Virus record (IMG/VR): IMGVR_UViG_3300035145_004316
Coordinates: 1 to 34,527 of that record
Length of the DNA stretch: 34,527 bases
Reading direction: 5' to 3' (one strand)
Source: a virus
Shown here: piece by piece, positions 101-33,112 of the stretch
How the letters are laid out: every line of letters begins with the position of its first letter
Position numbering within the stretch: position 1 is the stretch's first letter
The notes under the pieces: model-generated
The model's database searches: none
Told to the model about the DNA's origin: nothing
Seen by the model: only the letters and a program-made list of their open reading frames with translations
Position numbers and translations under genes: made by a program

Positions 101-574
101 TTATTTATCCTCTATTCTCGGGAGCCATTCAGCTACTTCATCGTGTAAAACAACTTGACTCACATCTTTTGTTTTAATTGGGTGCTGTCCTTTAAAAACT
201 GAAAGTTTATCAATTACAGCAGACTGAAGTTCGAATATTTGTTCTCTTAAAAGTTGCATTTGAATTTGAGAATCTCTAAGCCTACCGATCAAGGCAGCTC
301 TATCAGCATTTGCTGATGAAAGCTTGTCTTTGAGTTCTTCTACTTCTGACGGGTCTCTTCCTGCAGCGATTGAGAGCATCGAAGATATTGCGCCGGTAAT
401 CATACCAATCATACCTACGATGATATCACGATTGTCCTGTTGTAAAGGAATGAAAGCTAGGAACATTATTAAACATATAACAAGAACCATAAAAACGACA
501 CTAAACCACCAACCTCTTTTTGCCTTTTCAGTTTGAGTAAACTGCTTTTGTGTTTTTTCTTCTTTATTTGACAT
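101..574 (-). CDS. Two-helix membrane protein with coiled-coil tail
   Basis: Protein of 157 aa, family not recognised. The start at 574 (MSNKEEKTQKQF) is chosen over an upstream one at 637 because AGAGGA sits at the right spacing and because the longer version would overlap the divergent gene at 631. Residues about 22-44 and 51-71 are two hydrophobic segments joined by a short polar loop. Residues about 74-120 are charged and heptad-like, probably a coiled coil, followed by a polar tail. This suggests an inner-membrane hairpin with an oligomerising cytoplasmic or periplasmic arm. Holin, superinfection-exclusion or lysis-accessory roles are possible, but none is shown by a motif. The late promoter word upstream suggests late expression. 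Confidence 0.7.
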   Translation of the reverse strand: MSNKEEKTQKQFTQTEKAKRGWWFSVVFMVLVICLIMFLAFIPLQQDNRDIIVGMIGMITGAISSMLSIAAGRDPSEVEELKDKLSSANADRAALIGRLRDSQIQMQLLREQIFELQSAVIDKLSVFKGQHPIKTKDVSQVVLHDEVAEWLPRIEDK

Positions 575-630: not shown

Positions 631-1230
631 ATGACATATTTAAAAAATAAAATTAGTAATCAAGATTCAGAAGTTACAATATTAGACTCGGGTTCAGATG
701 GTAATATTAATTTTACTACTGATAATTCTTCTCGATGGGATATTACTGCATCAGGACATATAATTCCTTCGTCTAACGCAACTTACGATATCGGTGAAGC
801 AGAAAATAAAGTTAGACATTTATATCTAAGTAACAACAGTATCAAGTTTGACGGAGGAGATGTTGGCATCGATGGCGACGGAGATGTTACTTTTGCAAAG
901 TCAGGTGAAGCTGCTAATAAGTTGGCGACGCAGTCGTATGTAACAGCAAATGCAGGTGGTGGTGGATATACTTATAGTGCTATAATAGCTGATCCTGCTA
1001 GTGCACAAACAGGTTATCATTATTCTTGTACGGGAACTTTTACTATTACATTACCAACGAGCGGGGTAAGTGCTGGGGAAGAGATTCGAATTAAGAATAT
1101 GGGTGTAGGAACAATTACAATCGATCCGCAAACTCAAAATATCGATGGATTAAATAACGTATATGTCCTCGACGTTCAGTACTCGGCTATTACTCTTGTT
1201 TCAACTGGAACAGATTGGGAGATTATCTAG
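631..1230 (+). CDS. Small modular tail-fibre protein
   Basis: 199 aa; start supported by AGGA eight bases upstream. Three modules can be seen. Residues about 45-80 (ATYDIGEAENKVRHLYLSNN) match the 'IGS...W.DLYL' unit repeated in the giant fibre at 22337-28132. Residues about 95-108 carry an 'A.NKLATQSYV' motif found at shaft/head junctions of many marine phage fibres. Residues about 130-199 are a beta-rich C-terminal module (LPTSG...AGEEIRIKN...TITIDP...IDG...TDWEII) shared with the genes at 2922, 21192 and 22337. It is most likely a virion adhesin or fibre tip component. It opens a run of eight co-directional small structural genes. Confidence 0.75.
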   Translation: MTYLKNKISNQDSEVTILDSGSDGNINFTTDNSSRWDITASGHIIPSSNATYDIGEAENKVRHLYLSNNSIKFDGGDVGIDGDGDVTFAKSGEAANKLATQSYVTANAGGGGYTYSAIIADPASAQTGYHYSCTGTFTITLPTSGVSAGEEIRIKNMGVGTITIDPQTQNIDGLNNVYVLDVQYSAITLVSTGTDWEII

Positions 1231-1841
1231 TGAGTCATAATAAATATACAGTAAACACATCTGAACCAAATCGAAATAGTCAGTTAACTATTAATATAAA
1301 TGACATAAATGATGTTAGTTTGTCATCAGCAGTAGCGAATCAAATCCTTACCTATGACGGTACAAATTGGTACAACTCAGCTGTTCCGAGTGGTTTAATT
1401 TTTGCAGGTGAAGGTGATAGCCAGAATTATAATACCTCATCAGCGAGTGGAGTATCAGTATCTGACAATATCGAGTTTTATGCTTCAAACCCGACTAATA
1501 GTCTAGGTGCAACAATTACAAGTGCATCAGGCTGGATTAGCTCAATAACACTAACACCAGGAACATATAAGTTACAAGCTGTTGCTGGTTTAGAACTTTC
1601 AGCTTCGAGTGGGCTTTTAGAGTACCGCTGGCATGATGGTACTAATTATCTTGGAGCGACTGGTAACTGCGGTTATACTGATGATCGAGTCGGAAATCCT
1701 TGCGTTGCTATTGTTTCGCCAACATCAAATACTACGTATACAGTTAAAATTACTACTTCTACAAGTATAACACCTGTTGTTAGTCAAGGCTCAAGGCATT
1801 CACAGAGAGGTTATATTCTTATAGAAAGGGTAGTTGGATGA
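1230..1841 (+). CDS. Small fibre module with jelly-roll-like C-terminus
   Basis: The likely start is the GTG at 1230, overlapping the previous TAG by one base, because GGGAG at 1217-1221 is ideally spaced; a TTG at 1215 is in frame but has no such site. This gives 203 aa. Residues about 20-52 carry the linker TININDINDVSLSSAVANQ followed by ILTYDGTNWYNS, a motif common in marine phage structural proteins. The rest alternates hydrophobic beta strands (SGWISSITLTPGTYKLQAVAG, then a terminal GYILIERV), like TNF/C1q-type trimeric jelly rolls. This is inferred from pattern, not from a confirmed match. The TGA stop overlaps the next ATG. Confidence 0.7.
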   Translation: MSHNKYTVNTSEPNRNSQLTININDINDVSLSSAVANQILTYDGTNWYNSAVPSGLIFAGEGDSQNYNTSSASGVSVSDNIEFYASNPTNSLGATITSASGWISSITLTPGTYKLQAVAGLELSASSGLLEYRWHDGTNYLGATGNCGYTDDRVGNPCVAIVSPTSNTTYTVKITTSTSITPVVSQGSRHSQRGYILIERVVG

Positions 1842-1923
1842 CACATCTTGTAGATAAGATAAATACAAACAAACAAAACATAAGCGGAAAAACTACTATT
1901 AATATAAATGACATAAATGATGT
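1287..1923 (+). repeat. Pair of identical 29-bp direct repeats
   Basis: The copies at 1287-1315 and 1895-1923 are identical over 29 bases and then diverge at once on both sides. Both encode the INDINDV linker of adjacent structural genes in the same reading frame. They are positioned where homologous or single-strand-annealing recombination would exchange or delete the receptor-binding halves. Confidence 0.9.
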
Positions 1924-2506
1924 CACGATATCTAATTTACAAACAAATGATATGCTTAAATATTCAAACTCATCATTTAACAATAGTCCTTCTGACGTAT
2001 TAAATCCGAAATCAAGTTATCCACTAACAAATGGATACTCTGTGTCAACAGCAACAGATTATCAAAACTATACATACTTTGAATCACCGTTTTATTTAGC
2101 ATGTCGTCACAACTATTATACTGTTGCTATTATGGATTTCTTTAACGATTCAGACAATACAATTTTAAAACCTAATTTAAACTCTAATTCAGGATATATA
2201 ACAGGCGTAAGTATTAAAGCTAATCAACCAACGCTTTTATTTTGCTATAGCGCATTATCTGAGGATTCTGATAGTACAGCGTACATCGACCTACAATGGC
2301 AAACTGTTACAGGAACACCTCTCGGACCAATTACTAGATTTATGAGATTAGAAAACAATAACAGGAATACTGTTATTGGATATATTAATTCTAGTGTAGA
2401 TGTTGATGTAGGTTTAAAAAGATTAACAGGCAATTCATCATACGGATGGATGATGTCATCAAAATCAAGAGAAAATTTTATTATGATAGCAAAGAGAGTA
2501 CTTTAA
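1838..2506 (+). CDS. Small fibre module sharing its linker with the upstream gene
   Basis: 222 aa, starting in an ATGA overlap with the previous stop, so probably translationally coupled to it. The N-terminal region repeats the TTININDINDVTISNLQTND linker of the neighbour, and 29 bases encoding it are identical between the two genes. The C-terminal part is unrelated in sequence but again beta-rich and ends GWMMSSKSRENFIMIAKRVL, a typical outer strand of a sandwich fold. It is interpreted as an alternative or additional receptor-binding module on the same virion structure. No enzyme motif is visible. Confidence 0.7.
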   Translation: MTHLVDKINTNKQNISGKTTININDINDVTISNLQTNDMLKYSNSSFNNSPSDVLNPKSSYPLTNGYSVSTATDYQNYTYFESPFYLACRHNYYTVAIMDFFNDSDNTILKPNLNSNSGYITGVSIKANQPTLLFCYSALSEDSDSTAYIDLQWQTVTGTPLGPITRFMRLENNNRNTVIGYINSSVDVDVGLKRLTGNSSYGWMMSSKSRENFIMIAKRVL

Positions 2507-2875
2507 ATGAAGTTTATTAATAAATGTGTACCTGATTTACAAGTCGGTATTTTAGCAGAATTTGACAATACAGGTTTAATTTCAAGAAGAGAAAATGGTC
2601 GAATCATCGGCGTTGTTTCAAAAGTTTATCAAACACAGGCATCTATAGATGATCCAACTTTAATAAATATTGCTGAAATAACAGTATCAGGTTGGGTTAA
2701 CAATGTAATTTTAAGTGGTATTGCTTCCTGGAAAGGATGTGACTTATATGCAAATGGCGAGTATTTGAGCGCTACTCCTAATGGAGAAGTAATTGCTAAA
2801 TTAATTCCAAAAGTATTCGGTGAAGATCAGTCTGACTTCACCGATGGCGAACTTGTAACAGTTCACATTAGATAG
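2507..2875 (+). CDS. Small beta-rich virion protein, unknown
   Basis: 122 aa starting one base after the preceding stop. The sequence is strand-rich (GRIIGVVSKVYQ, EITVSGWVNNVILSGIASWK) with a distinctive stretch KGCDLYANGEYLSATPNGEV followed by IAKLIPK. That pattern of a turn-rich 'Gd.LY...G.ls..p.G' loop recalls small beta-barrel capsid-decoration proteins (DUF2190 type) and C-terminal head domains of some fibres. I do not consider this more than a resemblance. Position inside the fibre-module run supports a structural role. There is no signal peptide or membrane segment. Confidence 0.6.
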   Translation: MKFINKCVPDLQVGILAEFDNTGLISRRENGRIIGVVSKVYQTQASIDDPTLINIAEITVSGWVNNVILSGIASWKGCDLYANGEYLSATPNGEVIAKLIPKVFGEDQSDFTDGELVTVHIR

Positions 2876-2921
2876 AATTGCTTCAAGCTTAATACTTATT
2901 AATATAAAATAAGGAAAAATC

Positions 2922-3233
2922 ATGACTTATATAAGATCAAATTTTTATACAAACAGTATTACGACGAGTAATGATTATACAATTACTACTCAAAGAGGTG
3001 TAGGCGAAACGTTTATAGTAACTGCTAGTGCAAATATTAACATTAATCTTCCGTCAGCAGTAGCTTGTGGTAACGGTTATCAATATAATATTAAAAGTAA
3101 TGCAGATGGATATACTATTACGCTTGTTCGAAGTGGATCAGAGTTAATTGACAACAAATCCTCAGTCAGCATTATAAATCGTTATGAGTCACTTACATTA
3201 CAAAGCAATGGCGCAAATTGGTTTATTGTTTAG
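2922..3233 (+). CDS. Stand-alone C-terminal fibre module
   Basis: 103 aa with a good AAGGAAA ribosome-binding site. Almost the whole protein corresponds to the C-terminal domain fused to the larger proteins at 631, 21192 and 22337: a hydrophobic strand then INLPSA, a Gly/Tyr-rich turn (GNGYQYNIK), a TITLVRSG strand, an 'IDNKSS' turn, and the terminal strand SNGANWFIV. Having the same domain as a separate gene and as a fusion suggests a self-contained folding or trimerisation unit at a fibre tip. The N-terminus MTYIRSNFYTN resembles the truncated minus-strand gene at 1-99. Confidence 0.7.
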   Translation: MTYIRSNFYTNSITTSNDYTITTQRGVGETFIVTASANININLPSAVACGNGYQYNIKSNADGYTITLVRSGSELIDNKSSVSIINRYESLTLQSNGANWFIV

Positions 3234-3242
3234 GAATGATTT

Positions 3243-3686
3243 ATGAGTTTTAACAACAAAAAAGCTACACTTGGTACATACCTCGTTTACCTTGAAGCAA
3301 GCTCTGCAACTGTGTCTGTAAGTGACACTATAGGATATACACTTACGACAGGAACAAGCGGTCATGGTGTTACTGTGTCAAATGGTGTGATTAGTCTGCC
3401 TGCTGGCGAGTGGATTTGTTACGCATCAGTAGAACCCGATGATATTGATACGCGTATTGAGATAAAATGGTATGTAGACAATACATTAAACACTAATTTT
3501 CCAGGCATTGCACATAATGACTGGGATAGTAACATTGACGGGCAATATGGCTTTAACACAGATATGTATACAAGTGCTATTACACTAGAAGGTGGAGTTG
3601 ACGTTGAATTAAGGGTAACAGATTCATATGCCCAAAGCACAGCAATAGGAAAATCAGATTTAGTTATTTACGGAGTAAGAACATGA
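3243..3686 (+). CDS. Jelly-roll-like small adhesin module
   Basis: 147 aa, with AGGAA upstream of the ATG. After a short polar N-terminus the protein is a run of predicted beta strands: GVTVSNGVISLPAGEWICYASV, then RIEIKWYVDN, then AITLEGGVDVELRVTD, and a closing SDLVIYGVRT. The 'G.i.LpAG.w...a.v' phrase followed by a closing strand is typical of TNF/C1q-like trimeric domains used by phages as receptor-binding tips. The assignment is by pattern only. The stop overlaps the next start (ATGA). Confidence 0.65.
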   Translation: MSFNNKKATLGTYLVYLEASSATVSVSDTIGYTLTTGTSGHGVTVSNGVISLPAGEWICYASVEPDDIDTRIEIKWYVDNTLNTNFPGIAHNDWDSNIDGQYGFNTDMYTSAITLEGGVDVELRVTDSYAQSTAIGKSDLVIYGVRT

Positions 3687-4081
3687 GCTATCGAGTAAAA
3701 AGAGGAATGTTTGCCATAGGGATTATTAATTCTGGTCAAGATACAGGAGTAGGTGAATTAAATAAGTTAACTATTGACGAGGTTAGAACGAGTGCAGGTT
3801 CATTTCATACTACTAAAATGTTTATTGAAGATGGTTTAGCTTTTAGTGATCTTTACACTTATGACGCAGGTGGAGGATCTCCAAACTTAATGTCTAATGC
3901 AGGTCACTGCCCTTCTACTACAGGCGGTTTTGGTTTTGATACAGTTGACGGGTATTCAAATAGTATTTCTGGCGGTTCGGTAGGATGTGCTAAATATACA
4001 AACGATGAACTAGCTATTCACTATTATGAGTTTAATGATACGAATCACTCACTAAACAGCTCAATTTGCGTAGTGCTGTAG
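3683..4081 (+). CDS. Small hypothetical structural protein
   Basis: 132 aa, coupled to the previous gene by an ATGA overlap. It is Gly/Ser/Thr/Asn-rich with short strands (GMFAIGIINSGQD, AIHYYEFND) and a glycine-rich middle (DAGGGSPNLMSNAG). Three cysteines (in HCPST, GCAKY and SICVVL) are spread through the C-terminal two thirds; in a cytoplasmically assembled virion protein these are more likely buried than disulfide-bonded. No family recognised. Its place between two jelly-roll-like genes argues for a virion or fibre role. Confidence 0.6.
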   Translation: MSYRVKRGMFAIGIINSGQDTGVGELNKLTIDEVRTSAGSFHTTKMFIEDGLAFSDLYTYDAGGGSPNLMSNAGHCPSTTGGFGFDTVDGYSNSISGGSVGCAKYTNDELAIHYYEFNDTNHSLNSSICVVL

Positions 4082-4090
4082 GAGCTAAAG

Positions 4091-4570
4091 ATGACATATG
4101 CCCCTTTTTTAGCAAACCCTGACGTTAATAAGTCACAAAGCACACTTGGCGTTCCAGCCGATTTAAACGTAAACACACGAATCCCATGCACTAGCATTAC
4201 ACATTCAGGTATAACTAATTCAAACGGTCAACTTGTTATTAGTAGTGGTTTATCTGTATTACTTACGGCAAGTGCTTTTATAGATAAACGCCTAACGTAT
4301 ACAGGAGGTTATATGGTCTTTCAATGGTACGATGTAACAAACTCAGTTTGGCTTGGAAAGGATTGTCAACTCAGTACCTCAACTTGGAATGATAATACAC
4401 ATAGATATAAATCAGAATCTTTTGCGAGATGTGTACTAATCACAACTGCACAGACTACAGTTGAGCTTAGGATCAAATCTATTTTAAATTGTACAGCTAT
4501 AAATGAAGAATACGATGGTTCTACAATATTTGGCAGACCAAGTCCATGGTATTCAATATTAAGTTTTTAG
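4091..4570 (+). CDS. Small adhesin-like module at the end of the cluster
   Basis: 159 aa with a GGAG site six bases from the ATG. Like the genes at 1230 and 3243 it has the pattern of a beta sandwich: ITNSNGQLVISSGLSVLLTA, GGYMVFQWYDVTNSVWLG, TTVELRIKS, ending PWYSILSF. It begins MTYAPF, another MTY start as in the neighbouring modules. The last 12 bases overlap the end of the convergent cyclase gene, so the two transcripts run into each other and no terminator hairpin is visible between them. Confidence 0.65.
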   Translation: MTYAPFLANPDVNKSQSTLGVPADLNVNTRIPCTSITHSGITNSNGQLVISSGLSVLLTASAFIDKRLTYTGGYMVFQWYDVTNSVWLGKDCQLSTSTWNDNTHRYKSESFARCVLITTAQTTVELRIKSILNCTAINEEYDGSTIFGRPSPWYSILSF

Positions 4571-5443
4571 AAACTCAATTATTTGAGAAAGTAGTTCAAT
4601 TACTTGGTTAAACAACGGGATAATCCAGCCGATATAATAATTCAAGTCAATACCTGTTAAAGAATAGAAAATACTATTGCTATGGAAATTATTCGCTGTT
4701 TTTATTAAAAATATAAAAATATAAATTAAAGAAATCCAAAAAACTTTTAAAGTTATCCACCATGCTAATTCTTTTAAGCTTTTATTTCTTAGTCTTGTTT
4801 TTATTTTTCTTGCACCACCGATTCTTTTTGCTTTTTCTCCATCTGGTGGAGGTTGTAATTGTGCTTCAATTAAACCAATTGCATAAATAGCTTCAGGCTC
4901 AGATACTCCTTTAAATCTGTATAGTCCTACTAGAGCTGAAAGTGCTTTTTTAGGTATATAATTGTTTCTATGACCAAATTTTTTATATTGCATATAAGCT
5001 TGTTGTGACATCAGTATTTGCTCTTCTCCACAAATACTCATAGTTCTTGCTGCAATATTTTTTCCAATTCCTTCAAGATTAATTCTTTTTCCACCTGCTC
5101 TAACCATATGTGCTTCTGACTTAACAATAAGCATTTTATCCCAGTGAATACCTACTCTACTTCTAAAAGGAAATTTTTTCTTTCTTAAGAACTTTTTATA
5201 TTCAAAAGCAAATGCAATTGCATCAGAGACTGAAGGAAACATCATTAAATGCCCGTCAGATGCATCTATTAGTTGCCCGTTATGTCTTGCAATAAAATTC
5301 ATAACAGCTTTGTCATGTGCACCAAACCATTTTGCAGCGCTATAAGAGCCGTTCTTTTGAACAAACTTTGTACTTCCAATAATATCTGTTAATACTATTG
5401 CAATATTTGCTTCTACAATATTATTATCGATTAAGTTTGCCAT
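4559..5443 (-). CDS. Class III nucleotidyl cyclase with C-terminal membrane segments
   Basis: 294 aa. Residues about 13-155 form a class III adenylate/guanylate cyclase homology domain. The metal-binding aspartates are D20 (LTDIIGST) and D63 (DGHLMMF), 43 apart as in active enzymes. VGIH is at 97-100, and the transition-state pair N129 and R133 lies in GKNIAAR, followed by QILMSQ. A terminal cyclase strand FKGVSEPEAIYAIG is at 177-190. A basic linker leads to a transmembrane helix (about 229-249) and a second hydrophobic segment (about 269-292). It should convert an NTP to a 3',5'-cyclic NMP at the membrane, probably as a homodimer. The usual adenine-specifying Lys (D63 minus 4) is I59 and the usual Asp (N129 minus 7) is N122, so ATP is not a safe substrate guess. 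It lies alone on its strand. Confidence 0.85.
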   Translation of the reverse strand: MANLIDNNIVEANIAIVLTDIIGSTKFVQKNGSYSAAKWFGAHDKAVMNFIARHNGQLIDASDGHLMMFPSVSDAIAFAFEYKKFLRKKKFPFRSRVGIHWDKMLIVKSEAHMVRAGGKRINLEGIGKNIAARTMSICGEEQILMSQQAYMQYKKFGHRNNYIPKKALSALVGLYRFKGVSEPEAIYAIGLIEAQLQPPPDGEKAKRIGGARKIKTRLRNKSLKELAWWITLKVFWISLIYIFIFLIKTANNFHSNSIFYSLTGIDLNYYIGWIIPLFNQVIELLSQIIEFLKT

Positions 5444-6285: not shown

Positions 6286-7917
6286 TTGAAAAATATAAAT
6301 ATAGAAAACTGGCATAAATACTTTCCTTATACTTCACCTAGAAGTCAGCAGTCTAATGTAATAAACAAAGTACTAAAAGAGTTTTCAGAAGGAAAAAAAT
6401 ACGCAATAGTAGATTGTGGTACTGGTGTAGGAAAGTCTGCAATTGGATTAACTATTGCTAGAAGTTTAATTGAATCTTCTGAATTTGAAGGCAAATTTGA
6501 AAACGGCGCTTACTTTTTAACAACACAAAAGATACTTCAAAAACAATACGAAGATGATTTTACTAAAAGTACAGGTCTTGTATCACTGTATTCTTCTTCA
6601 AATTATAAATGTTCAATAGATAAAAATAGTTCTTGCAAAGAAATACAAACTGGCATTAGATCAAAAAGCATGCCAAAAAAATATAATAGTTGCAGTTATG
6701 ATTGTTGTTATAAAAAGCTAAAAAAAGATTTTATGGAAAAAAGTTTAGGAATAACAAACTTTAGTTATTTTTTAACAGAAAAGTCTTTTAGTCAAAAAAT
6801 ACCAAACAAAAGAGTTTTAATTATTGACGAAGCACATAATTTAGAAAACGAACTTTCTAGATTTGTTGAAATTTCTGTCTCTGAGTATTTTGCAGAAAAA
6901 ATACTTAAAATGAAACCTGACAAGTCTTTAAAAACTCAATTTCAAACTTTTAATTGGATTAAAAATATTTACTACCCTCAAATATCTAAAAAAATAAAAA
7001 GTATATCGAGTCAAATGGAAAAGTTTGGATTAACTACTCAGAAACTAGAAGAGTTTTCTAAAATAACCAAAAGATTTGATATGCTTGTTTCTCATGAAAA
7101 GAAAATATTAAACTTTATATCCTTGTATGATAAAGATAATTGGGTTTTTGATATTGAAAAAACAAACGATAACTATAGAAAATTTGTTTTTAAGCCGATA
7201 GAAGTAGCTGAGTATGCAAACGAATATCTTTTGCAATATGCTGATTATGTCATATTTATGTCTGCAACTATACTTTCTCACGAAGGATTTTCTTTAACAC
7301 TAGGATTACCTTACGAAAAAACTGTTTCCATAAAAGAAAGCTCTCCTTTCGACCCTAAAAAAAGTCCTATTGTTTATTCGCCAGCTGGCAGCATGTCAAT
7401 GAAAAATATTGAAAGAACACTTCCAGCAATGACATCTATGATTAAAGAAATAATTAATAATCATAAAAAAGAAAAAGGTATTATACATACACATAACATA
7501 AGAATTGCTGAACATCTTAAAAAGCATTTAAGATCAAAAAGAATATTAGTTGCGTATGGAGAAAATAGAGATAAAATTCTTGAAAAGCATATAAGCTCAA
7601 AAGAGCCTACGATTCTTCTTTCTCCGTCTATGGCTGAAGGTGTCAACTTAAAAGGCGAACTTTCAAAATTTCAAATACTTTGCAAAATACCTTTTCCTTA
7701 TTTAGGTGATAAAGTCGTTAATAAAAAAATAAACAAATGGAAGTGGTGGTATGATCTCCAGACCATAAGAACAGTAATACAAAGTGTTGGAAGAAGCATA
7801 CGTTCCGAAGACGACGAAGCAATAACATATATACTTGATAGCGATTGGTCTAGGGTTTATTCTAAGAATAAAATACAAATGCCAAAAAACTTTATTGAAA
7901 GCTATATTGAAGTATAA
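6286..7917 (+). CDS. DinG/XPD-type superfamily 2 helicase with Fe-S cysteines
   Basis: 543 aa from a TTG start with AGGAAAA just upstream; no in-frame ATG is better placed. Motifs in order: SPRSQQ (17-22), Walker A GTGVGKS (45-51), cysteines C109, C117, C136 and C140/C141 in the position of the XPD/DinG iron-sulfur domain, ITNFSYFL (156-163), DEAH (181-184), FMSATI (324-329), EGVNLKG (451-457) and QSVGRSIR (499-506). This is the Rad3/XPD/DinG order, a 5'-3' ATP-dependent DNA helicase acting on R-loops, forked or displaced strands. Length is shorter than E. coli DinG (about 716 aa) but complete in motifs. It probably works in phage replication, recombination or repair. It leads a co-directional run with the Nudix and chaperonin-like genes. 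Confidence 0.85.
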   Translation: MKNINIENWHKYFPYTSPRSQQSNVINKVLKEFSEGKKYAIVDCGTGVGKSAIGLTIARSLIESSEFEGKFENGAYFLTTQKILQKQYEDDFTKSTGLVSLYSSSNYKCSIDKNSSCKEIQTGIRSKSMPKKYNSCSYDCCYKKLKKDFMEKSLGITNFSYFLTEKSFSQKIPNKRVLIIDEAHNLENELSRFVEISVSEYFAEKILKMKPDKSLKTQFQTFNWIKNIYYPQISKKIKSISSQMEKFGLTTQKLEEFSKITKRFDMLVSHEKKILNFISLYDKDNWVFDIEKTNDNYRKFVFKPIEVAEYANEYLLQYADYVIFMSATILSHEGFSLTLGLPYEKTVSIKESSPFDPKKSPIVYSPAGSMSMKNIERTLPAMTSMIKEIINNHKKEKGIIHTHNIRIAEHLKKHLRSKRILVAYGENRDKILEKHISSKEPTILLSPSMAEGVNLKGELSKFQILCKIPFPYLGDKVVNKKINKWKWWYDLQTIRTVIQSVGRSIRSEDDEAITYILDSDWSRVYSKNKIQMPKNFIESYIEV

Positions 7918-28248: not shown

Positions 28249-29145
28249 ATGTTTAAAAGCCCGTTTGAAGAAAAAAAAGATCTAATTGTCGTTTCTGATA
28301 TGTTTGTTCAACAATATGTTGGTGGCGCAGAAATGACTTTAGAGGCTTTTTTAAACTCTGTAAGTTCAAACTATAAAATTCATAAAATAAACTGCAGGGA
28401 TCTTACTTTTGAAGTATTTACTCAAATATTAAATAAATTTAGTAATGCAAAGTGGCTATTTGGAAATATTGGTAATATTGACGCTAATATTCTAAATTCT
28501 GCAATTTTTCAAATTAAAGATTACGACATTATTGAGTGTGATTATAAATATTGCTCTTATAGATCTGAAGAGTTGCATAAAGAAAAAACAAGTAATGAAT
28601 GTGACTGTGCAAACAACGAAAAATTGTATTACTTAATATCAAACTTCTATAGCAATGCAAAAAATTTGTTTTGGATGTCAAAAAAACAAATGCAAATAAC
28701 AAACAAAAGACTAAGAATTGTAAATGTTAACCAGATTGTTCTAGGCTCGCTTTTTGATATAGAACATATAAACTATATAAAAAGTTTAACGGATAAAACA
28801 GACGTTAAAAGAAGTAGTAAATATATTGTATTAAAAAGTCCTTCTTGGGTTAAAGGTTATAACAATTCAATTGATTATTGTGTTGAAAACAAACTAGACT
28901 ATGAAGAAGTCTGGAATTTAGACTATAAATCGCTGTTAAATAAGCTTAGATCCTCGAAAGGTTTAGTTTATCTACCTAACGGTAAAGACACTTGTCCTAG
29001 ACTCGTTATCGAAGCAAAGCTTTTAGGTTGCGATTTAATTTTAAATGATAAAGTTCAACATAAAGATGATGATTGGTTTAAAAACGTAAATAGTATATAC
29101 GATTATCAAGAAAAGCAACGTAAAATGATAAAGGAATTATTTTGA
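28249..29145 (+). CDS. Glycosyltransferase, GT-B / GT4-like
   Basis: 298 aa with AAAGGAAG upstream. GGAE at 25-28 matches the N-terminal glycine loop of GT4 enzymes. Residues 239-265 (LVYLPNGKDTCPRLVIEAKL followed by LGCDLIL) are the nucleotide-sugar-binding C-terminal motif, in which the usual E-x7-E is D247 to E255. Length is shorter than a typical 350-400 aa GT4, so the domains are compact. It transfers an unknown sugar from a nucleotide-sugar donor. First gene of the sugar operon, behind the fibre terminator; the gap holds a weak promoter-like CATAAT. The stop overlaps the next start (TTGA). Confidence 0.75.
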   Translation: MFKSPFEEKKDLIVVSDMFVQQYVGGAEMTLEAFLNSVSSNYKIHKINCRDLTFEVFTQILNKFSNAKWLFGNIGNIDANILNSAIFQIKDYDIIECDYKYCSYRSEELHKEKTSNECDCANNEKLYYLISNFYSNAKNLFWMSKKQMQITNKRLRIVNVNQIVLGSLFDIEHINYIKSLTDKTDVKRSSKYIVLKSPSWVKGYNNSIDYCVENKLDYEEVWNLDYKSLLNKLRSSKGLVYLPNGKDTCPRLVIEAKLLGCDLILNDKVQHKDDDWFKNVNSIYDYQEKQRKMIKELF

Positions 29146-30107
29146 AACTAAGCTCATATACTACAGTTTATAATTGCATTGATAACAAATATCCATGGAA
29201 AGACTCTATAAATTCACTTTTAGGCTTTAGTGATGAAGTATGTGTTGTTGATGGCGGGAGCACAGACGGTACTTGGGAGTCTTTAATTGAATGGGCAAAA
29301 AACGAAGATAAACTAAAGATTGATCAATATAAAATTGACTGGAATAGACCTGACTTTGCTTATGAATCTGACGGTCGTCAAAAAACAAGAGCAAGAAAAC
29401 TATGTTCAGGAGATATATGTTGGCAATCAGATGTCGATGAAATTATTGTTGAAAGTGATTATGAAAAAATTAAAAACTTGGCCAAAGCATTTTATGATTT
29501 TGATCTAGATTTAATAGCTTTACCTATTATAGAATACTGGGGAAATAAAGGAAAAGTTAGAATTGACGTGAATCCTTGGAAGTGGCGAATGAGTAAAAAT
29601 AAAGATTATATTATCCATGGTATACCTGATACTCATTTAAGAACAAGAGAAGATGGATTTGAATACGCATTAAGCGGAACAGATAGTTGTGACTATATTA
29701 ATTCAAAAAGTCATGAGTTAATCCCGTTTGGGTTTGTTTTTAATATTAAAGAAGTAAATCAAATAAGAGCAAAAGCACTAACAGGAAACAAAGAGTTTAT
29801 TGATTTATATCAAAAAGTTATTCAAAACATAGTGGAAAATATACCTACTGTCAGACATTACTCATGGTATAATATTGAAAATAAAATACACAATTATAAA
29901 AAACACTGGTCTAAGTTTTGGTGTTCTTTATATAATAAACCAGTAGAAGATACTCCTGAAAACAATATGATGTTTGACAAAGCATGGTCGGAAGTTTCTG
30001 ATAAAGAAATAAAAGAATTAGCTTTAAGACTTGAAAAAGAAATGGGAGGCTGGATATTTCATAAAAAAATTAATTGGGATAATAAAATATCGTGGATAAA
30101 ATTATGA
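29142..30107 (+). CDS. Glycosyltransferase family 2 (GT-A)
   Basis: 321 aa from a TTG start overlapping the previous TGA by four bases; AAGGAA is correctly spaced and no ATG is close. The nucleotide-binding motif VCVVDGGSTDGT (33-44) and the metal-binding DVDE (97-100) are typical of GT2. An acceptor region contains the run RARKLCSGDICWQSD. The C-terminal half is Trp-rich and helical (KIHNYKKHWSKFWCSLYNKP). It probably adds a sugar to a glycan made by this operon. TTGA coupling suggests fixed stoichiometry with the GT4 partner. Confidence 0.8.
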   Translation: MKLSSYTTVYNCIDNKYPWKDSINSLLGFSDEVCVVDGGSTDGTWESLIEWAKNEDKLKIDQYKIDWNRPDFAYESDGRQKTRARKLCSGDICWQSDVDEIIVESDYEKIKNLAKAFYDFDLDLIALPIIEYWGNKGKVRIDVNPWKWRMSKNKDYIIHGIPDTHLRTREDGFEYALSGTDSCDYINSKSHELIPFGFVFNIKEVNQIRAKALTGNKEFIDLYQKVIQNIVENIPTVRHYSWYNIENKIHNYKKHWSKFWCSLYNKPVEDTPENNMMFDKAWSEVSDKEIKELALRLEKEMGGWIFHKKINWDNKISWIKL

Positions 30108-30844
30108 ACAATAAGTTTGTTTTTTTAGTAACTTGTTTCAATGAAGAAAAAGGAATATTACAAACACTAAAGACATTCCATTCACAGTCTTATAATAACT
30201 GGAGAGTTGTTATAAGAAACGATATGTCAACAGATGATTCAATTACTTCTATAAACAATTTTAAAAGTGATCACCCAGAAATAAGTAGTAAAATTAATTT
30301 AATTAATAATAAAAGAAAATTTGGAGAAGTTGAAAATACTCTTGATTCTCTTAGAATGATAGAAGAAGATGAAATAGTTTGTAGAGTTGATGCTGGAGAC
30401 TGGTTAATAGATAATGATATCTTATTTTTTTTAAACAAAGTATATACAGAACATAAAGACTTAGATGTGTTATGGACAAGTCATCGGTGGGGGTATACAA
30501 CTAAAAACATATCAAATCATATGCCTTTAAATTGTGACGTGTACAAACATCCATGGGTATCAAGTCATATGAAAACTTTTAGACGATCTGCATTTTACGA
30601 CATACCTGATTCTAATTTTAAAGATGACAGAGGAGAATATATTATGATTGCATGTGATCAAGCTATATTTTTACCTTTATTACATAAAACAAACACCAGA
30701 AATAGAAAGTATGCTTACTTACCAATATCAGCGTATCATTACAATATTAAAACAAATGATCCAAGTATATACCAAACTGAAAGAGCTTATAGACAAAGAG
30801 ATTCAGCAATTAACTTAAGAAAAAGAGGTTATCTTGAAAATTAG
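30104..30844 (+). CDS. Glycosyltransferase family 2, short
   Basis: 246 aa using the ATG at 30104 in an ATGA overlap with the upstream stop; a GTG at 30092 is in frame but has no better site. The fold start FVFLVTCFNEEKGI and IRNDMSTDDSI (38-47) are GT2 hallmarks, and RVDAGDWL (94-101) carries the metal-binding acidic pair D96 and D99. A late acceptor-side motif HYNIKTNDPS is present. Its donor and acceptor are unknown. Confidence 0.78.
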   Translation: MNNKFVFLVTCFNEEKGILQTLKTFHSQSYNNWRVVIRNDMSTDDSITSINNFKSDHPEISSKINLINNKRKFGEVENTLDSLRMIEEDEIVCRVDAGDWLIDNDILFFLNKVYTEHKDLDVLWTSHRWGYTTKNISNHMPLNCDVYKHPWVSSHMKTFRRSAFYDIPDSNFKDDRGEYIMIACDQAIFLPLLHKTNTRNRKYAYLPISAYHYNIKTNDPSIYQTERAYRQRDSAINLRKRGYLEN

Positions 30845-31745
30845 ATTTGATAATGTAAATTTTAATGCTAATAATGGTCCTAATGGCTTTGGCGTTAAAC
30901 TTGCTAAAGAGTTTATTCGTCAAGGCCATAATATAGTACACGATAGACCTGATGTCCAAATTAGCTTTATCCAAAAAAAATTAGAATTTAATCCATGCGT
31001 ACTTAGATTAGACGGTATTTATTTTAATACTAGACAAGACTGGAAAAGTCAGAATCAGCAAATTTCTAAATCATATTTTAGCTCACAGTCAATTATAGTT
31101 CAAAGCAAGTTTAATAAAAATTTAGTTTTTAATTATTTTGGTGAAAGAGAAAACGTATATATTATAAAAAATGGAACTGACTTAGAGGAAATAAATAAAA
31201 TTCCTGCACTTGATCATGAAATTTTTAATAGATTTGAAAACATATGGATGAGCGCATCACACTGGCGACCTCATAAAAGATTAAATGAAAACATAGAATA
31301 TTATTTAGAAAACAAAGGTAGTAAAGATTGTCTAATTTTATGCGGCAAAGGATTTGATGAAAATATTAAGCAAGAATACAGAAATTTGCTTAAAGAAAAG
31401 TCTATATTTTATTTAGGTGAACTTAATTGGCATCAATTAATATCGTGTATGAAAAAGTCAAAATATTTTTTGCACTTATCTTTTTTAGATCATTGTCCTA
31501 ACGTAGTAGTTGATGCAAAAGCTGCAGGTTGTATTTGCATAGTAGCGTCTTCAGGGGGTACAAAAGAACTATGTAATAAAAATGATATTATTATTAAAGA
31601 TTTAGATTGGGATTATACACCTTTAGATCTTTACACTCCTCCAAAACTTGATTTTACTTTATTTCAAGAAAAATATAATAACGCTGATTATTCAATTGAG
31701 TGTAGTTATAAAAACTATTACAAGGTATTAACTAAAACATTATGA
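30834..31745 (+). CDS. Glycosyltransferase group 1 (GT4-like)
   Basis: 303 aa from a TTG start with AAAGAGG upstream, overlapping the preceding gene by 11 bases. The N-terminal GPNGFGVKLAKEF is the Gly-rich acceptor loop. SASHWRPHKRLN (140-151) is the phosphate-binding region. HLSFLDHCPNVVVDAKAAGC (214-233), followed by SSGGTKEL, is the GT4 donor-binding signature, with Asp in place of both usual glutamates. It is probably active with altered donor contacts. It ends in ATGA with the methyltransferase, keeping the chain of overlaps. Confidence 0.78.
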   Translation: MKIRFDNVNFNANNGPNGFGVKLAKEFIRQGHNIVHDRPDVQISFIQKKLEFNPCVLRLDGIYFNTRQDWKSQNQQISKSYFSSQSIIVQSKFNKNLVFNYFGERENVYIIKNGTDLEEINKIPALDHEIFNRFENIWMSASHWRPHKRLNENIEYYLENKGSKDCLILCGKGFDENIKQEYRNLLKEKSIFYLGELNWHQLISCMKKSKYFLHLSFLDHCPNVVVDAKAAGCICIVASSGGTKELCNKNDIIIKDLDWDYTPLDLYTPPKLDFTLFQEKYNNADYSIECSYKNYYKVLTKTL

Positions 31746-32332
31746 AATATAAAAATTATGAAGAGTATATAAATTTTCAAAAAACAAAAACTACAGACCC
31801 GATTAGAAGAAAAAAGTGGCTTAATGAAGAATGGGATTTAAAGTTAAATGGTTTTAACAAGCAATTCCAAAAGTTAATAAATTTAAACTTGCTTGAGAAA
31901 AATCAAAATTGTCTTTGTTTAGGTGCTAGAACAGGCCAAGAAGTTCAATCTTTAATTGATTTAGATATGAAATCTATTGGAATTGATATTGTCCCTTGTG
32001 AGCCTTTAGTAATTAAAGGTGATATACACAATCTGGATTTTAAAGACAATGAATTTGATTTTATATACACAAACATACTTGATCATTCTTTATATCCAGA
32101 AAAAATGGCAAGTGAAGTATTTAGGACATTAAAGACAAATGGCATATTTTTTTTACAAATACAATTTGGTATTAATCAGGACGAATATACAGAATATGAA
32201 GTAAAAAATATTCATAATGTCATTGAGGTTTTTAAAAGCTTAAAGTGCATACATGCTAATTGGATATTTAAGAATCCAAAACAAATAACAGAACATGGAA
32301 TGAATTTTGAATTTATTTTTAGAAAACAATAA
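31742..32332 (+). CDS. Class I SAM-dependent methyltransferase
   Basis: 196 aa, ATGA-coupled to the GT4 gene. Motif I is CLCLGARTGQEV (57-68), with an acidic residue D82 ending strand 2 (SIGIDIVP), a GDIHNLDF stretch around D94 and FDFIYTNILDHS (105-116) as the post-motif strand. N- and C-terminal parts are short. Candidate substrates are sugar hydroxyls or an enzyme of the same pathway, judged by the neighbours; the sequence does not fix them. Confidence 0.75.
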   Translation: MKYKNYEEYINFQKTKTTDPIRRKKWLNEEWDLKLNGFNKQFQKLINLNLLEKNQNCLCLGARTGQEVQSLIDLDMKSIGIDIVPCEPLVIKGDIHNLDFKDNEFDFIYTNILDHSLYPEKMASEVFRTLKTNGIFFLQIQFGINQDEYTEYEVKNIHNVIEVFKSLKCIHANWIFKNPKQITEHGMNFEFIFRKQ

Positions 32333-32417
32333 CGTACAATTATATAAGAAATTTATTGACAAAGAAAATAATTTAAAAGCAAAGCTTTATAGCAATAATA
32401 AAAGGCATATAAAATGA
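32307..32417 (+). CDS. Possible small protein or remnant (36 aa)
   Basis: An open frame with a TTG at 32307 runs through the 81-base gap between the two methyltransferases and stops at 32417 in an ATGA overlap with the next gene, the same arrangement used elsewhere in the operon. The deduced peptide starts NLFLENNNVQLYKKFIDKEN and is Lys-rich and helical; a GGA lies eight bases before the TTG. It may be a true small gene, the tail of a decayed gene, or chance in AT-rich DNA. Confidence 0.3.
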   Translation: MNLFLENNNVQLYKKFIDKENNLKAKLYSNNKRHIK

Positions 32418-33112
32418 AATATATGAAGAACTACTTTCAAAAGTTTAGCATGATTAAAAAAATTATCGCTAAAGAAAACCCTGTTATTATAGAAATTGGA
32501 GCTCATTATGGTGAAGATACGTTAAGATTTAATGAAATATTTTTGGATCCTACTATATATTGTTTTGAGCCTGATCCTAGAAATATAAATATTTTTAAAA
32601 AATATGTCAAAAGTTCAAATGTAAAACTTTTTGAAGTTGCTCTTTCCAACAAAAAAGGAACGTCAAATTTTTATCAAAGCTACCAGACATTTAATGCTAA
32701 ATCTGTTCCTAAAAAATATGACTGGATTTCTATCGAAGATTACAAACTAAACAAACTAAACAATTCAGGATCTTCTTCTTTGAAAAAAGGTTATAAACAT
32801 ATATTAGAAGAGAAAATTATTGTTAATACAGATACTTTTGATTCTTATTTTTGTGAAACAAAAACAATAGATTTTGTTTGGATTGATGTTCAAGGTGCAG
32901 AAAAAGAAGTTTTAGAAGGTATGTCTAATTCAATGACTAATATAAAATATATCTGGATAGAATATGGTGAAACAGATTACGAAGGCGGAATGAATAGATC
33001 TAACACAATAGAACTATTAAACGAGTACGGTTTTTGTTTAGTTTCAAATTTATCTGATACTTCTAGGCAAGGAGATTTATTATTCGTTAATAAGGACAAA
33101 ATACAAAAATGA
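32414..33112 (+). CDS. FkbM-family methyltransferase
   Basis: 232 aa. VIIEIGAHYGEDTLRF (24-39) is motif I, CFEPDPRNINIF (50-61) the acidic SAM-binding loop, EVALSNKKGTSNFY (74-87) the FkbM signature strand, and FVWIDVQGAEKEVLEGM (154-170) the conserved IDVQG.E motif. FkbM enzymes O-methylate sugars, antibiotics or glycoproteins, so this one fits capping of a glycan made by the operon. The stop overlaps the next ATG (ATGA). Confidence 0.88.
   Translation: MKYMKNYFQKFSMIKKIIAKENPVIIEIGAHYGEDTLRFNEIFLDPTIYCFEPDPRNINIFKKYVKSSNVKLFEVALSNKKGTSNFYQSYQTFNAKSVPKKYDWISIEDYKLNKLNNSGSSSLKKGYKHILEEKIIVNTDTFDSYFCETKTIDFVWIDVQGAEKEVLEGMSNSMTNIKYIWIEYGETDYEGGMNRSNTIELLNEYGFCLVSNLSDTSRQGDLLFVNKDKIQK

Follow-up and report, generated by a model that had tools for sequence, protein, structure and literature searches.

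The question raised by this locus is what a gene resembling a nucleotidyl cyclase is doing in the genome of a phage. The window, meaning the whole stretch of 34,527 nucleotides that was analysed (positions 1 to 34,527 of IMG/VR virus record IMGVR_UViG_3300035145_004316), carries phage structural genes together with PhoH and DinG-type helicase genes, and three glycosyltransferase-like genes and two methyltransferase-like ones lie in a row at its end (29142-33112). The gene in question and the parts of its product are as follows.

4559-5443, minus strand: 294-aa open reading frame, class III nucleotidyl cyclase
Residues ~12-207 of this product: catalytic domain
Residues ~223-251: hydrophobic helix, followed by more C-terminal helices

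The product of 4559-5443 is a class III nucleotidyl cyclase, with matches far above chance, and the sequence-only reading of this DNA was right both in this and in calling it a phage gene with a membrane tail. The assignment is supported by the following data. Phmmer matched the protein to Ma1120 (1.8e-6) and Rv1900c (1.9e-5). Its AF2 model (mean pLDDT 71.8, with residues 103-127 weak) was also matched to Ma1120 by Foldseek (E 1.6e-10) and by VIA (structure 5d0e_B; Z 18.4 over 162 residues, rmsd 2.4). No family was obtained in a Pfam search at E<=0.1, and in BFVD the model matched a few cyclases of giant viruses, together with a single protein from an uncultured Caudovirales member that carries the annotation of a COG4252 sensor. 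In the tail, a hydrophobic helix begins near residue 225 and the Kyte-Doolittle (KD) hydropathy reaches 2.24 near residues 229-247; 44/50 relatives likewise pass the hydropathy threshold that was applied. Homologues in 26 further virus records, the phage cyclases being 257-300 aa long, and dN/dS values of 0.05-0.13 mark it as a genuine phage gene that is kept by purifying selection.

The gene had been described as standing alone on its strand beside a small membrane protein, like a piece of cargo, and as perhaps acting through its own membrane segments. It does look like cargo and a small membrane protein, C1, does adjoin it, but this description overlooked a near-constant partner with two transmembrane helices, C3, which is also on the minus strand. 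The gene neighbourhoods of 27 records revealed a near-constant trio of C1, the cyclase and C3, and in the window the remaining features are the following.

101-574, minus strand: partner protein C3, 157 aa from an inner ATG; the open reading frame opens at 637
631-4570, plus strand: block of eight tail/virion-like or unknown small genes between the cyclase and C3
5537-5815, plus strand: C1, 92 aa with two hydrophobic segments, adjoining the cyclase in the window's group

The block at 631-4570 is missing from most relatives, and there the cyclase and C3 abut. A survey of related phage genomes, as the sequence-only reading had suggested, established that the cyclase recurs and that it does so with C3. 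A search with C3 alone gave 270 viral matches, and among the records fetched for the best 80 of these, a cyclase of the same family was present on the same strand as C3 in 79, the remaining one being cut at a contig end; the two genes overlapped or lay <=60 nt apart in 73 of the 80. In 24 further records, picked for having C1 without a nearby cyclase, 8 held both a cyclase and C3, 2 others held C3 without a cyclase and 14 held neither. The two C3 matches without a cyclase were divergent C3 proteins nearly identical to each other. From the counts in the C3-picked and C1-picked records it was concluded that the cyclase and C3 travel together, with C1 more loosely attached; C1 is a frequent neighbour and no core part. 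The divergences of the cyclase and C3 were weakly correlated (Spearman 0.15, Mantel p 0.07), so tight co-evolution of the two is not shown, and the weak correlation suggests that partners have been reshuffled.

Several variants of the arrangement were seen. At L248:4894-5529 a divergent C3 of 211 aa, with a longer C-terminal tail and without a cyclase, lies near dCMP-deaminase-like and tail-type genes. In a 316-kb phage record another small membrane protein (L249:3842-4135) overlaps the cyclase start by 4 bases, and C3 is ~1 kb from the cyclase on the opposite strand. A Cys-rich protein of ~70-135 aa, zinc-ribbon-like with repeated CxC / CxxC, is encoded between C1 and the cyclase in 16/27 near relatives (e.g., L031:9708-9995 and L042:9695-9976) and is absent from the window.

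The AF2 model of C3 (mean pLDDT 69.9) consists of transmembrane helices at residues 14-41 and 49-70, a long helix of 49 residues at 75-123 and a short tail. Two transmembrane helices followed by a helical segment is the topology of SLATT effectors, and SLATT is a predicted nucleotide-responsive pore-forming 2TM domain (PMC7159879). Pfam SLATT (PF18142) was weakly matched by 24/31 C3 members (best E 6.3e-5), the window copy not being among the matches listed; this similarity probably lies below the Pfam gathering score, and the AbrB family was matched by as many members. No globular ligand-binding or nucleotide-binding domain was recognised in the C3 model, which has no space for a cyclic-nucleotide-binding domain, and no match was found for it among viral structures. 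PHROGs offered no family for the cyclase or for C1 and gave C3 only weak matches, function unknown. C3 is nevertheless the better conserved of the two partners, with a mean divergence of 0.34 as against 0.46 for the cyclase and identities to the window copy of 53-94% as against 24-89%; its coiled coil and C-terminal extension are very conserved.

The pair looks like a virus-borne module, not described before, for signalling or membrane control. Our preferred reading, to which we give an even chance, is that the cyclase and C3 form a phage-borne, laterally mobile membrane module, control of C3 by the cyclase or by what it makes altering the host inner membrane. To the fold, catalytic residues, tail, purifying selection, linkage and spread observed here, this reading would add enzymatic activity, a substrate, a direction of control, a membrane effect and a biological purpose. 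The class III cyclase, with its TIGR04510-type domain, would be tethered by its C-terminal helix at the host inner membrane and would make a cyclic mononucleotide there, cGMP being the likeliest product, followed by cAMP and then a pyrimidine cyclic nucleotide. C3 would be a partner dedicated to the cyclase and under the control of it or its product, built as a membrane hairpin of two helices and a long coiled coil on the cytoplasmic side. Late in infection C3 would change the host inner membrane, with the result that rival phages are excluded or lysis is timed. A full phage-encoded second-messenger system, in which a cyclic mononucleotide made by the phage at the membrane of its host drives superinfection exclusion or timed lysis via C3, is put forward more tentatively, as a possibility somewhat on the doubtful side. 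Phages are known mainly as destroyers or sponges of host-made cyclic nucleotide signals, and phage genes expected to produce one at the membrane would turn this view around. At ~1.3 kb the pair is small, and it is conserved, widespread and laterally moving.

The main rival to this module reading takes C3 to be a sensor or scaffold that gates the cyclase, the cyclic nucleotide then acting on regulators of the host, CRP-like receptors or others, and reprogramming the infected cell. Such a role would fit the strong conservation of the C3 coiled coil and C-terminal extension in a protein with no recognisable ligand-binding domain. The receptor would have to be the host's, since no match to the cyclic-nucleotide-binding family PF00027 above the curated cut-off was found in nine related virus records, which are incomplete and in which divergent domains of this kind may be passed over. 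Against this rival, very different phages, and presumably very different hosts, would then need a common host receptor, and the better conservation of C3 relative to the cyclase fits a part with a job of its own. We consider this rival unlikely, though it is the most serious one.

The contexts in which the pair occurs bear on its mobility. The relatives all come from contigs of uncultured viruses, and many of these contigs are fragments. In T4-like phages, whose terminase is ~40% identical to that of Flavobacterium phage immuto, the cyclase-C3 pair lies beside dinG-type helicase genes; elsewhere it lies behind baseplate/tail-fibre genes or, in one large group, between TerL and portal. On the cyclase tree, branches with good support require the dinG-context label to have changed at least 5 times, from which it was deduced that the gene moved between phage lineages or was replaced in place. 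Among INPHARED phages no relatives of the cyclase, C3 or C1 were found apart from one 28% cyclase match, MT838110.1 (L247, "Bacteriophage sp."), which has the look of a bacterial contig, GC-rich and filed in error, with an ordinary class III cyclase. The plasmids searched contained no C3. Bacterial genome contigs scanned with chosen patterns gave no relatives, a result that does not imply absence from bacteria or prophages. T4-type late-promoter words were found upstream of C3 in 2/31 cases and upstream of the cyclase in none; such a promoter was rejected as a general feature, and late expression of the pair is accordingly predicted from gene neighbourhood.

Other features were noted in these neighbourhoods. 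The helicase of the window (6286-7917) was assigned both to the type IV CRISPR DinG by PADLOC (6.6e-72) and to phage DNA helicase by PHROGs (6e-111), a double assignment that carries a risk of false CRISPR calls. Beside C3, T4-like relatives recurrently encode an outer-membrane-like DUF481 protein whose start resembles a signal peptide (L020:14788-15540; Pfam 3e-21). An N-terminal EY(K/R).LVE.W motif is common to several otherwise different proteins near the module, some of which continue with a hydrophobic stretch (L023:14877-16547, L025:14660-16141 and L020:17542-18087, all on the minus strand), and may be a capsid-targeting leader for injected proteins.

The same contexts bear on a second rival, in which the pair controls lysis, C3 and perhaps C1 being holin- or antiholin-like and the cyclase a timing device. 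A GH24-like lysozyme gene lies near C3 in the window's relatives and an Amidase_2 endolysin lies near it in another group, which speaks for this rival. The large group with the pair between terminase and portal argues against it, as does the lack of a consistent lysis gene in other groups. A pure lysis cassette was rejected as a general reading on account of the terminase-portal group, and lysis control as such is judged improbable.

Whether the cyclase could act at all was assessed from its catalytic residues. Both metal aspartates (D20 and D63) and the transition-state pair N129/R133 were found where the sequence-only reading had placed them, and they are near-invariant. Over 50 non-redundant cyclase relatives, D60, D63, G64, K119, G125, K128 and R133 are invariant (50/50), D20 is present in every relative whose sequence covers that position, and N129 is retained in 47/50. 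The cyclase is therefore predicted to be probably catalytically competent on the strength of these retained residues. That it is a catalytically dead pseudo-cyclase, serving as a structural or sponge domain, would accord with the one residue missing before D63 and with the unusual residues of the base site; with both metal aspartates and the arginine in every relative covering them, and the asparagine kept in nearly all, it is a decidedly improbable explanation.

The base pocket is non-canonical, as had been claimed, but one of the two residues named was off by one position. In the HMMER alignment the phage segment GQLIDA-SDG stands opposite GHVVKSQGDG of Ma1120, and the alignments to both Ma1120 and Rv1900c place a one-residue gap after D60, the phage loop before D63 being one residue shorter. 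Because the gap falls after D60, the residue at the Lys site is D60 and not I59, and residue 59 is mostly hydrophobic among the 50 relatives. The other named residue, N122, is indeed at the Asp site, but the substitution is lineage-specific (Glu in 26 relatives, Asn in 19, Ser in 3 and Ala in 2). Since D60 is invariant and residue 122 is variable, the acid at the Lys site was taken to characterise the family, and N122 the branch to which the window belongs. The canonical adenine-selecting Lys/Asp (or Thr) pair of adenylyl cyclases is thus absent, with D60 and N122 (E122 in most relatives) in its place. In Ma1120 the K101E change, which likewise makes the Lys-site residue acidic, lowers ATP use and raises GTP use (PMC4215837). 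By this analogy a purine substrate, GTP first, is a reasonable guess for the phage cyclase, and is offered as that.

By profile comparison the nearest family of the catalytic domain is, by a wide margin, the NCBIfam family TIGR04510. It was matched by 16/16 close cyclase members (best 4e-36) and by distant phage cyclases with E down to 2.9e-45, always over profile positions ~5-204 of 814 and with 97-155 bits. In a control, ordinary class III cyclases encoded on alphaproteobacterial plasmids did not exceed about 28 bits over these positions. The best phage score of 155 bits is below the curated 400-bit cut-off, so the phage proteins are not full-length members, and a literature search for the TIGR04510 protein name found no paper. 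The kinship with Pycsar defence cyclases suggested by the sequence-only reading did not hold up. The PADLOC PycC models gave the phage cyclase 22.8 bits at best, as against 20.1-36.9 bits for four ordinary class III cyclases from plasmids; because these controls score equal or higher, the PycC matches are unspecific. The top 50 matches listed for the cyclase model by Foldseek and by VIA contain no PycC structure, which proves nothing. Capture by phages of a Pycsar-type cyclase making cUMP or cCMP could draw on the weak PycC matches, on the lack of the purine Lys/Asp pair and on the Asp used in the pocket by clade B PycC (PMC11224242), but with these controls, with no cyclic-nucleotide-binding effector above the PF00027 cut-off in the nine records and with TIGR04510 as the best family, it is very improbable. 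Both this capture and a pure lysis cassette fit the data less well than the module reading and its main rival.

Comparison with known systems places the pair near several of them. TIGR04510 (mod_pep_cyc, "putative peptide modification system cyclase") shares its N-terminal cyclase domain with the phage proteins, the match taking in the entire 7-204 region, but the 814-residue model continues into a long C-terminal part where the phage proteins have a membrane tail and no TPRs. A similar architecture is found in XC_0250 of Xanthomonas campestris, in which a class III cyclase domain is followed by TPRs and the product is cGMP, not cAMP (PMC3770947); its possible kinship with TIGR04510 is a lead drawn from architecture. 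Unlike the phage cyclase, XC_0250 has no reported membrane tail, and its partner is a CNBD-GGDEF protein. The nearest solved structures, those of the mycobacterial Ma1120 and Rv1900c, are about 21-22% identical to the phage cyclase and lack the membrane tail, and Ma1120 has the canonical Lys/Asp pair. Pycsar, in which PycC is accompanied by PycTM or PycTIR, likewise has a class III cyclase adjoining a membrane-protein gene, but C3 is without a cyclic-nucleotide-binding domain, PycC-specific similarity is missing and the phage pair is carried by phages. The SLATT 2TM effectors of nucleotide-signalling conflict systems also place two transmembrane helices and a helix beside a nucleotide-messenger enzyme (PMC7159879), with the difference that C3 is viral and its enzyme is a class III cyclase. 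If the full second-messenger system is real, the pair would be the phages' equivalent of the cyclase-effector defences of bacteria, able to move between unrelated phage lineages.
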